From Leptospiraceae bacterium (GTDB lineage: Bacteria > Spirochaetota > Leptospiria > Leptospirales > Leptonemataceae): a DNA stretch of 64,000 nt. This document shows, in pieces, positions 44,165 to 47,930 of this stretch; the first letter of the stretch is position 1, and each line of letters opens with the position of its first letter. The DNA lies in contig BPKM01000004.1 in assembly GCA_026005135.1 (NCBI GenBank), forward strand, positions 1-64,000, given 5' to 3'. The notes under the pieces are model-generated. The model was not told the origin of the DNA and searched no databases. It was given only the letters and a program-made list of their open reading frames with translations. Both the position numbers and the translations under genes were made by a program.

Positions 44165-44701
44165 AAAAGTGAGTCTACAAAGAAAACAGATAAGAATGAT
44201 GCGGAATTGCTGGCATATTATGCGAGTAAAGAGATGTTGCCAGAAGTTCGGATTAAAGATGATGCTTATGTGGAGATAGAAAGTTTAACGAATACAAGGA
44301 ACAAATTAGTAGAGTTAAGAAGTAGTTTAAAGAATAAGATTCACAATCTTTTATTATCACAGGGAATATTAACCAAAAAAGAACAATTTTCAAGTGATAA
44401 GAGTTTAGAGAAGGTATTAGAATATGAAGAATTGAGCGAAACAGTAAGATTTGAATTAAAAATTATAGTTAATCAGATTTTATCTTTAAATGAATCTATC
44501 AAAGAAATAGATAAAAAATTAGAAGAGTTAGGGAAATCTTTATCAGGTTTTACAAATATTACAAGTATAAAAGGGATAGGAACAAAAACAGGGATAACAT
44601 TATTAGCGGTAATAGGAAACATAAATGATTTTGAAAATGAGAAGAAATTATTTTCCTATTTTGGTTTAGTATTAAAAGGATTTCTTTATGATAGTAAATA
44701 A
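44165..44701 (+). pseudogene. IS110-family transposase remnant
   Basis: The frame opens after a TAA with STKKTDKNDAELLAYYASKE, the end of the DEDD catalytic domain (the KTDxxDA pattern). It continues through the helical spacer and reaches the Transposase_20 helix-hairpin-helix part (ITSIKGIGTKTGITLLAVIG, then FSYFGLVLKGF). The N-terminal ~90 residues with the first catalytic acids and the C-terminal part with the conserved Ser are missing, so it is inactive. It sits in front of a DUF2061 gene that has lost its start, which suggests that insertion and decay of the element damaged it. Confidence 0.8.
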
Positions 44702-46577: not shown

Positions 46578-46988
46578 ATGTGGTTATCCCGATGGGATGA
46601 TTATTTATGGAATGATATAGCAGATTTTATGAATAGTATAAATCAAGCTATTCGAAATAGAAATGAATATCCAGTATTTCGTATGTATGAAAATGATGAT
46701 GGATTATATTTAGTTGCAGAAGTACCTGGTGTTAAGCCAGAAGATATCAATTTAGAATTAAATGATAATGTTCTTACTATTACTGTAGAAAAAAAACCAG
46801 AAGAAGATGAAAATTTAACAGTTTTAAGAAGTGAAAGAGAATATGGTAAATTTATAAGAAGTTTTCAATTACCCTTTAAAGTTAAAGAAGAAGATATTTC
46901 AGCAGAATATAAATATGGTATATTAAGAATTACTCTTCCAAAAGCAGAAGAAGAAAAACCTAAGAAAATTGCAATTAAATCAGCTTAA
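46578..46988 (+). CDS. Small heat shock protein Hsp20, copy 1
   Basis: 136 residues from the ATG at 46578, which follows a perfect AAAGGAGG by the right distance; a GTG six bases earlier falls inside that site and is not used. The alpha-crystallin domain runs from about residue 40 to 130: YLVAEVPGVKPEDINLELND, REYGKFIRSFQLPFKV and the conserved end YGILRITLPKAEEEKPKKI. Hsp20 proteins hold unfolding proteins as oligomers. A sigma-54-type promoter lies upstream. A second hsp20 gene follows after a structured spacer. Confidence 0.93.
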   Translation: MWLSRWDDYLWNDIADFMNSINQAIRNRNEYPVFRMYENDDGLYLVAEVPGVKPEDINLELNDNVLTITVEKKPEEDENLTVLRSEREYGKFIRSFQLPFKVKEEDISAEYKYGILRITLPKAEEEKPKKIAIKSA

Positions 46989-47047
46989 TATCTACTAAGT
47001 TTAGTATTATTATATTATGATTAATTGATTAAATTAAATAAAAAACC

Positions 47048-47349
47048 GTCGTCGGACTCAACACGACGATAACTATAAAAAAAGGGCTTGGGCGGGTGGG
47101 AAAAATCTGTCGTCAGACTTACCGACGACAACTCAAAAAGTGTATAGGGAGGCGGGTGGGATTAAATAGCCGTTGGGTTTACACAACGGCAACCCTAAAA
47201 AAAGGTGGGGTGACAAATACCGTCGGCGGGTTTACTCGCCGACAATCGGTGGGCGGGTGGGGTGACAAATACCGTCGGCGGGTTTACTCGCCGACAATCG
47301 GTGGGCGGGTGGGGTGACAAATACCGTCGGCGGGTTTACTCGCCGACAA
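47048..47349 (+). repeat. Array of six GC-rich hairpins with intervening G-runs
   Basis: Six stem-loops of six to seven base pairs lie at 47048-47070, 47108-47130, 47169-47190, 47222-47243, 47274-47295 and 47326-47347. Stems differ but are compensated (TCGTCG/CGACGA, TGTCGTC/GACGACA, GCCGTTG/CAACGGC, GTCGGCG/CGCCGAC), with similar eight or nine base loops such as GGTTTACT. The last three form exact 52-base tandem repeats. Between hairpins lie G-runs, including GGGCTTGGGCGGGTGGG at 47084-47100. It fills the spacer between two hsp20 genes and is far richer in GC than the surroundings. Open frames here are by-products of the repeat. Confidence 0.85.
47084..47100 (+). other. Candidate G-quadruplex motif
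   Basis: GGGCTTGGGCGGGTGGG has four runs of three G separated by loops of three, one and one bases, which meets the classical quadruplex rule. Related but weaker G-runs follow each later hairpin (near 47147-47160, 47249-47262, 47301-47314). In a genome this AT-rich such a motif is not expected by chance. Confidence 0.6.
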
Positions 47350-47367
47350 TTAAAAAGGAGGTGCAAT

Positions 47368-47880
47368 ATGAAATGGAAATTATTACCAACAAAATGGCAA
47401 AAAGACAATGATAAAGAAAAACAAAATCAAACTCAAAAAGAAGAAAAATACTTAACACCAAGAGATTTTTTTGAAAGCTTTCAAAGAAGTATTGATGAAT
47501 TTTTTGAAGATTTTGGTTATCCAGATTTCTTTTCTAAAGAAAGAACATTTTATCCTAAGGTTGATGTAAGTGAGAAAGATAATGAAATTATTATAAAAGC
47601 TGATGTACCTGGTATTGATGAAAAAGATTTAGATGTTTCTATAACAAAAGATGCTGTGATTATTCAAGGTGAAAAGAAATACGAACATGAAGAAAAACAT
47701 AGTAATTATTACAAAAAAGAAAGAAGTTATGGTAGCTTTAGAAGAGTCATTCCTCTACCGGTAGAAATTGATGAATCTAAAGCAGAAGCTACATATAAAA
47801 ATGGTGTTGTAACAATTAGATTACCAAAATCTCAAGAAGCTATTAAAAATGTCAAAAAAATCCCCATCAAAACATCATAA
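47368..47880 (+). CDS. Small heat shock protein Hsp20, copy 2
   Basis: 170 residues from the ATG at 47368, preceded by AAAAGGAGG; the frame extends upstream into the hairpin array, but this is not coding. A Lys/Gln-rich N-terminus and FFESFQRSIDEFFEDFGYPDFF lead to the alpha-crystallin domain at about 60-160: PKVDVSEKDNEIIIKADVPG, RSYGSFRRVIPLPVEI and NGVVTIRLPKSQEA. It pairs with copy 1 as in Leptospira-type hsp15/hsp20 loci. A strong terminator follows. Confidence 0.93.
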   Translation: MKWKLLPTKWQKDNDKEKQNQTQKEEKYLTPRDFFESFQRSIDEFFEDFGYPDFFSKERTFYPKVDVSEKDNEIIIKADVPGIDEKDLDVSITKDAVIIQGEKKYEHEEKHSNYYKKERSYGSFRRVIPLPVEIDESKAEATYKNGVVTIRLPKSQEAIKNVKKIPIKTS

Positions 47881-47897
47881 AAACATCATAAAAAACA

Positions 47898-47930
47898 ACC
47901 GCTCTGGAAAAAAGAGCGGTATTTTATTTT
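47898..47930 (+). terminator. Terminator after the second hsp20 gene
   Basis: Perfect eight-base stem ACCGCTCT-GGAAAAA-AGAGCGGT followed by ATTTTATTTT on the plus strand. It lies 17 bases after the hsp20 stop and just before the end of the convergent rdgB gene. Confidence 0.85.

Follow-up and report, generated by a model that had tools for sequence, protein, structure and literature searches.

Hairpin and G-run arrays at Shine-Dalgarno sequences in a Leptospiraceae genome: a candidate 5'-leader module

Two hsp20 genes on the forward strand of a 64-kb window (the whole stretch of Leptospiraceae DNA that was analysed) are separated by a spacer in which six GC-rich hairpins and five G-run clusters fill positions 47048 to 47347. 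The hairpin-to-hairpin spacings are 61, 60, 53, 52 and 52 nt, and the G+C content of the array is 54% versus 23 to 30% in the surrounding window. The coordinates of all features are given in Table 1. An earlier note, made from the sequence alone, had described six GC-rich hairpins at a near-regular spacing of 52 to 61 nt and had listed their loops, and this description was confirmed at a level far above that of shuffled sequences. With a strict hairpin defined as a perfect stem of ≥7 bp with a loop of 4 to 12 nt, 5 were observed in the 302-nt array compared to a mean of 0.067 and a maximum of 2 in 1,000 dinucleotide shuffles; the entire 64-kb window contained only 10. The motif GGGCGGGTGGG (≤1 mismatch) had four matches in the window, all inside the array, with 0.02 expected. 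The textbook quadruplex motif reported between the hairpins, GGGCTTGGGCGGGTGGG, is present as the first G-run cluster and is followed by four further clusters. The earlier description of stems that differ in sequence and are compensated on the other arm held for the compensation, but only four stems in this array are distinct because hairpins 4 to 6 belong to units repeated in tandem with a 52-nt period. In hairpin 1, G-U forms the outermost pair. A promoter scan of positions 46985 to 47013 detected a 9-of-12 promoter-like match, which was not above the shuffle level.

Table 1. Features of the hsp20 locus (window positions) and decayed relics elsewhere in the genome (R1, covariance model described in the text)
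Feature	Position	Strand	Basis or remark
First hsp20 gene	46578..46988	+	ATG read from sequence; ORF table start 6 nt earlier at GTG
AT-rich start of insertion	46989..47047	.	Missing at SKW199 junction
Hairpin 1, GTCGTCG gactcaaca CGACGAT	47048..47070	+	R1, 42.3 bits
G-run cluster 1, four G3 runs, quadruplex motif GGGCTTGGGCGGGTGGG	47084..47100	+	Sequence
Hairpin 2, TGTCGTC agacttacc GACGACA	47108..47130	+	R1, 36.1 bits
G-run cluster 2, GGGAGGCGGGTGGG	47147..47160	+	Sequence
Hairpin 3, GCCGTTG ggtttaca CAACGGC	47169..47190	+	R1, 50.7 bits
G-run cluster 3, GGTGGGG	47204..47210	+	Sequence
Hairpin 4, GTCGGCG ggtttact CGCCGAC	47222..47243	+	Hairpin scan, R1
G-run cluster 4, GGTGGGCGGGTGGGG	47248..47262	+	Sequence
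Hairpin 5, same sequence as hairpin 4 (52-nt tandem copy)	47274..47295	+	Hairpin scan
G-run cluster 5, end 53 nt 5' of start codon	47300..47314	+	
Hairpin 6, end 20 nt 5' of start codon	47326..47347	+	Hairpin scan
Shine-Dalgarno (SD) GGAGG of second hsp20 gene, retained from ancestral junction (TAAAAAGGAGGTG)	47357..47361	+	
Second hsp20 gene	47368..47880	+	Pfam HSP20, E = 8.1e-23
Decayed relics	C2:259741 and C3:450868		R1

Searched at the DNA level, the assembly (3.42 Mb, 18 contigs) yielded 23 matches spread over many contigs. Thirty-four distinct units were aligned by MAFFT alone (alignment A1), and covariance model R1 was built from A1. The covariance-model search for more copies that had been proposed earlier was run, and 81 units were detected in the genome, distributed over 17 arrays, each made up of one to nine hairpin-plus-G-run units, and two decayed relics. 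Among 40 relatives and 345 genomes of the phylum, the only other species with the unit was Leptospiraceae MAG SKW199 (G003), a member of the same genus, which carries it 5' of several genes; run with fast filters, R1 fails to find decayed units, that of SKW199 recA among them. A weak match in G344 (L222) was judged to be due to chance and not a sign of wider spread, since it is a single hairpin, set in GC-rich DNA and followed by neither an SD nor an ATG. In a collection-wide pattern scan, other organisms carried single matches only, in a number near the estimated ~15 chance matches, and those of them that were rescored with R1 reached ≤14 bits. Contig BPII01000034.1, filed under the 'Sericytochromatia' MAG KatS3mg068, was 98% identical over 10 kb to contig C3 of the Leptospiraceae genome and was therefore probably misbinned rather than representing a second phylum. 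A phage or plasmid origin was rejected, with no match found among phages, plasmids or viral contigs. No Rfam family scored above threshold (RAGATH-22, at an E value of 0.95, was far under the cut-off), in agreement with the earlier statement that no described element of this kind was known. All of these genomes are draft MAGs, in which repeat arrays may have collapsed during assembly (the present genome is 94% complete and 3.7% contaminated). Two SKW199 contigs end within an array between etfB and etfA (G003:C9 start and G003:C22 start), which indicated that arrays break assemblies and that SKW199 copy numbers at this site are lower bounds.

The proposal that pairing is kept despite sequence change was upheld for the hsp20 array and for ~80 further copies. 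In A1, 97.5% of cells were paired versus 81.2% in shuffles, with two-sided change at 5 of 7 pairs, although units within arrays are related and pairing cells overcount events. Among all 79 distinct matches, whose alignment was fitted to the model and is biased to it, 95.9% of cells were paired, two-sided change occurred at 6 of 7 pairs and the covariation score was 0.46, compared to 0.19 for shuffled and ≤0.09 for slid alignments. Orthologous leaders of SKW199 provide support for structure that is independent of array kinship. The SKW199 ccoP leader consists of GGGTGGG, then GGCAATGTG-tact-CACATTGCC, then the SD; a distance of 54 nt was found in both SKW199 and the present genome despite the unrelated stem. 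The hairpin is also present in the SKW199 recA leader, with a changed loop and a partly changed stem.

All 17 arrays lie on the sense strand and have their 3' end at the SD of the next gene. The hsp20 array is one of many, and the main regularity, the locking of the unit to the SD and start codon, had been overlooked in the earlier note. The leader order from 5' to 3' is a G-run cluster, ~10 to 14 nt, a 7-bp GC-rich hairpin, AAC(T/C)CTAAA, GGAG, ~6 nt and ATG. Of 21 leaders, 19 have a last hairpin that ends 18 to 22 nt 5' of the start codon (recA being counted at 19 nt, from its true ATG); the exceptions, DctP and SKW199 PfpI, have an extra G-run between hairpin and SD. The end of the SD-proximal G-run cluster is 48 to 57 nt 5' of the start codon in 20 of 24 leaders (median, 53.5). 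Units are 47 to 69 nt long with mixed periods, mostly not multiples of 3, on which grounds a coding minisatellite was rejected. A CRISPR was likewise rejected, with stems and loops that vary and with spacers that are G-runs of one kind rather than unique sequences, as was an array of intrinsic terminators, a GC hairpin followed by a T-run being present for 0 of 6 hairpins on the sense strand and 2 of 6 on the antisense strand.

The suggestion that the G-runs belong to the unit was borne out by the spacers. Exactly four G-runs are present in 28 of the 51 distinct spacers, and 100 of the 131 gaps between runs are one base long, with T, A or C as the single-base loop. GGGNGGG occurs in 42 of the 51 versus 26 ± 3 when the G-rich cores were shuffled, and four G3 runs occur in 10 of the 51 versus 0.3. 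Conservation of the runs and short loops with variation of the loop bases is the pattern expected of quadruplexes, and the G-run cluster (usually four runs with 1- to 3-nt loops) is predicted to be able to form a G-quadruplex. The leaders combine a four-run G motif on the sense strand 5' of the SD with a hairpin, the composition expected of a natural quadruplex/hairpin translation enhancer.

Array-preceded genes in this genome encode or include hsp20, rplJ, recA, ppdK, acetyl-CoA synthetase (acs), an AMP-binding ligase, a CoA-transferase, a COX1-family oxidase subunit, ccoP, DctP, TetR, Mpo1-like and DUF3332 proteins and a lipoprotein, and those in SKW199 include etfA, PfpI-like and DUF2147-like genes (recA, rplJ, ppdK, dctP, etfA, PfpI and DUF2147 were named from the translations as read; Pfam supported others). 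No common function was apparent among them. Several arrays lie between codirectional genes (hsp20-hsp20 and rplA-rplJ in this genome, etfB-etfA in SKW199), and several others are preceded by a long intergenic region and not by a cistron. The last 120 nt of the leaders were predicted to fold more stably than shuffled sequences (mean z, -2.8). Accessibility of the SD-to-AUG region was 0.56 compared to 0.52 with shuffled leaders and was 0.74 for the hsp20 leader, indicating that SD pairing is not used by the module as a switch. An RNA thermometer of the ROSE or fourU type was rejected on the basis of this unsequestered SD and the lack of an Rfam thermometer match. A heat-shock-specific element, and with it the heat-shock or temperature role put forward in the earlier note, was also rejected, the arrays being found in front of unrelated genes with the SD left open.

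In SKW199, G002 and G001 the hsp20 pair is almost fused, with TAA directly before the SD, and an orthologue of the first hsp20 gene stands 5' of the second in SKW199. These junctions indicated that the array, together with ~60 AT-rich nucleotides, is an insertion; the suggested uncoupling of the two genes is in keeping with an array that parts a pair nearly fused in three congeners. At etfB-etfA, an array is present in SKW199 and the site is empty in the present genome, G001 and G002. The empty sites are thus reciprocal, the hsp20 site being filled only in the present genome and the etfA site only in SKW199. Alignment with SKW199 extends to ~20 nt from the start codon at the hsp20, COX1-family, TetR, Mpo1-like, DUF3332 and DctP genes, which placed the insertion directly upstream of the SD. 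Rapid turnover was evident between two 98%-identical strains. In one array, 6 of 6 copies share one T/C difference and one strain has an extra unit; in another, the SD-proximal hairpin has been replaced by one of another type, which is imperfectly paired in the present genome. These changes indicated that units are homogenized and exchanged quickly. The present genome, SKW199 and G001 also have G-run leaders in which the hairpin is missing or of another kind, which suggests that the G-run leader is older and that the GC-hairpin arrays are a recent amplification.

GC-rich hairpins that are dispersed and sometimes arrayed are also typical of REP/BIME sequences. REPs occur mainly on the downstream side of genes and have a link to RAYT transposases, whereas the present arrays are strictly upstream of genes. 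The BOX elements of Streptococcus pneumoniae are likewise dispersed and modular, with a stem-loop and with inner modules that vary in number, but they have boxA and boxC flanks and are over-represented between convergent genes (PMC3049150), whereas the arrays are always directly upstream of an SD. Flanking modules like boxA or boxC were not seen in the arrays, which start in differing AT-rich sequence and end at the SD.

With anatomy, sense polarity, start-codon spacing, covariation, dispersal before unrelated genes, insertion at the SD and concerted unit turnover demonstrated at the level of sequence, the arrays may be read as a dispersed 5'-leader RNA module of G-quadruplex, hairpin and SD, with a fixed anatomy, that enhances or insulates translation. 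We favour this reading tentatively, at somewhat under an even chance, because of the anatomy, the sense polarity, the fixed distance to the ATG and the precedent of a synthetic study. In that study, a hairpin plus a quadruplex 5' of the SD increased translation up to 12-fold and the pattern was also found in E. coli; a quadruplex 46 bp upstream of the SD was enhancing and the C-rich orientation was suppressive (PMC11087576). The arrays have the same components, G-rich on the mRNA, and a similar quadruplex-to-SD distance (~40 nt). The synthetic leader was designed and single copy, with the hairpin upstream of a quadruplex of proven formation; the arrays are natural, alternating and repeated, with predicted quadruplexes of mostly one-base loops and with one more hairpin separating the last quadruplex motif from the SD. 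Longer quadruplex loops performed better in the synthetic study (PMC11087576), which argues against a translation module here, as do the lineage specificity of the arrays, without which orthologous genes manage, the fast change of unit number and type, including the SD-proximal hairpin left imperfectly paired after a swap, and the two relics, which indicate that units also decay. On the favoured reading, alternating quadruplexes and hairpins would form on the mRNA, isolate the SD region from upstream mRNA and make it harder for the 30S subunit to drift backward, and the downstream cistron, sometimes inside an operon, would have its translation raised or insulated. Units may be multiplied through slippage or recombination that involves the SD (AAAGGAG) and the similar G-run starts (AAAGGGAG, AAAAAAGGG), spreading like a small repeat and being retained where helpful or harmless.

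A somewhat unlikely explanation is a small interspersed repeat, selfish or neutral, that inserts beside SDs and whose SD-adjacent sense copies persist as the least harmful. It would accommodate the reciprocal empty sites in close relatives, the concerted change of six units and the gain of one between the 98%-identical strains, and array-preceded genes that lack a functional theme. As part of this explanation, the perfect arms could be maintained by template switching within the hairpin (quasi-palindrome correction) plus gene conversion rather than by selection on structure. MIRUs, which land at start codons, provide a precedent: they are short repeats dispersed at gene starts with tandem copies and a polarity tied to the gene (PMC12548453). 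Insertion at gene starts with fixed polarity was found here also (17 of 17 arrays, with empty sites in relatives), but a MIRU includes an ORF that is coupled to the gene's start codon, whereas the present unit is noncoding, consists of a hairpin and G-runs, and lies upstream of the gene's own SD, which is kept. A repeat of this kind does not readily explain G-run and hairpin distances to the ATG that are fixed over many loci, the same geometry with an unrelated stem at SKW199 ccoP, or the older hairpinless G-run leaders in three species; furthermore, no terminal inverted repeat or target duplication was identified, nor was a transposase in the regions analysed.

Effects on transcription or mRNA turnover appear less probable. 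Behind RNA polymerase, the G-rich nontemplate strand might fold into a DNA quadruplex or form an R-loop and increase transcription, with the hairpins incidental or helping. Every G-run is on the nontemplate strand of the downstream gene, the uniform polarity of the arrays would fit a transcriptional effect, and a nontemplate quadruplex motif downstream of a start site raises transcription in vitro (PMC7341879); we nevertheless consider this quite improbable, as the constant distance to the start codon, the hairpin fixed 5' of the SD and the positions inside operons would be left unexplained. Cleavage in the A-rich linkers, with the 5' end of the downstream cistron shielded by hairpin and quadruplex, would suit the arrays between codirectional genes and the stable structures close to the SD. 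Such a processing or stability element would not require a fixed start-codon distance, and several arrays have a long intergenic region, not a cistron, on their 5' side; we consider it slightly less probable still. The least probable reading is that of binding sites for a translational regulator, such as CsrA or a Csp or S1-like protein, with the 17 genes as its regulon. Repeated sites with conserved loop letters (GGGTTTAC, GGGCTTTGCA) do stand 5' of many genes, and such a role was proposed for the TAACTGA heptamers of Beggiatoaceae, which are also tandem repeats a few nucleotides before the start codons of various unrelated genes, those for ribosomal proteins among them (PMC4679880). Canonical SDs are rare in those leaders (PMC4679880), whereas the arrays consist of 47- to 69-nt hairpin/G-run units 5' of a clear SD. 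The absence of a shared gene function, the unlike gene sets of close relatives and the unrelated SKW199 ccoP stem all argue against a regulon, the last specifically against a sequence-specific binder.

Should the module prove to enhance translation, it would be the counterpart in nature of the synthetic quadruplex-plus-hairpin enhancer, with ~17 natural leaders of different lengths as a test series and the empty orthologous leaders as controls. A bolder and unlikely extension is a natural genome-wide translational rheostat, in which units are copied to the SDs of various genes (those for a ribosomal protein, RecA, central metabolism and respiration), unit number sets protein output, and slippage and conversion change that number between strains. 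If true, natural leaders of this class would use RNA quadruplexes to promote bacterial translation, not to block it, and would evolve through changes in unit number. Even if merely tolerated, the units would constitute a small repeat family that repeatedly lands at SD sites and keeps a fixed RNA-like geometry. Our searches found no repeat family with this behavior, and we know of none described.

Single G-run leaders were also observed outside arrays in the present genome, G000 (L243, L246, L250, L255 and L257), some of them with unrelated AT-rich hairpins, e.g., GTAAATT...AATTTAC, and R1 consequently undercounts the leader class. In SKW199 (L240, G003:C28:75200-75900), tandem G-run units that lack GC hairpins (GGGAGGGATTAAAAATCTTAAA) lie 5' of an SD and are possibly an earlier form of the array.

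Two further observations were made in the window. A hairpin at 47898 to 47920, 3' of the second hsp20 gene, has T-runs on both strands and is likely a two-way terminator between convergent genes. A 504-nt piece at 44168 to 44671 and a transposase gene on contig C5 of this genome are identical, and the C5 copy adjoins the 3' side of a six-unit array (C5:223989-224341); this transposase looks like an IS110-type enzyme.
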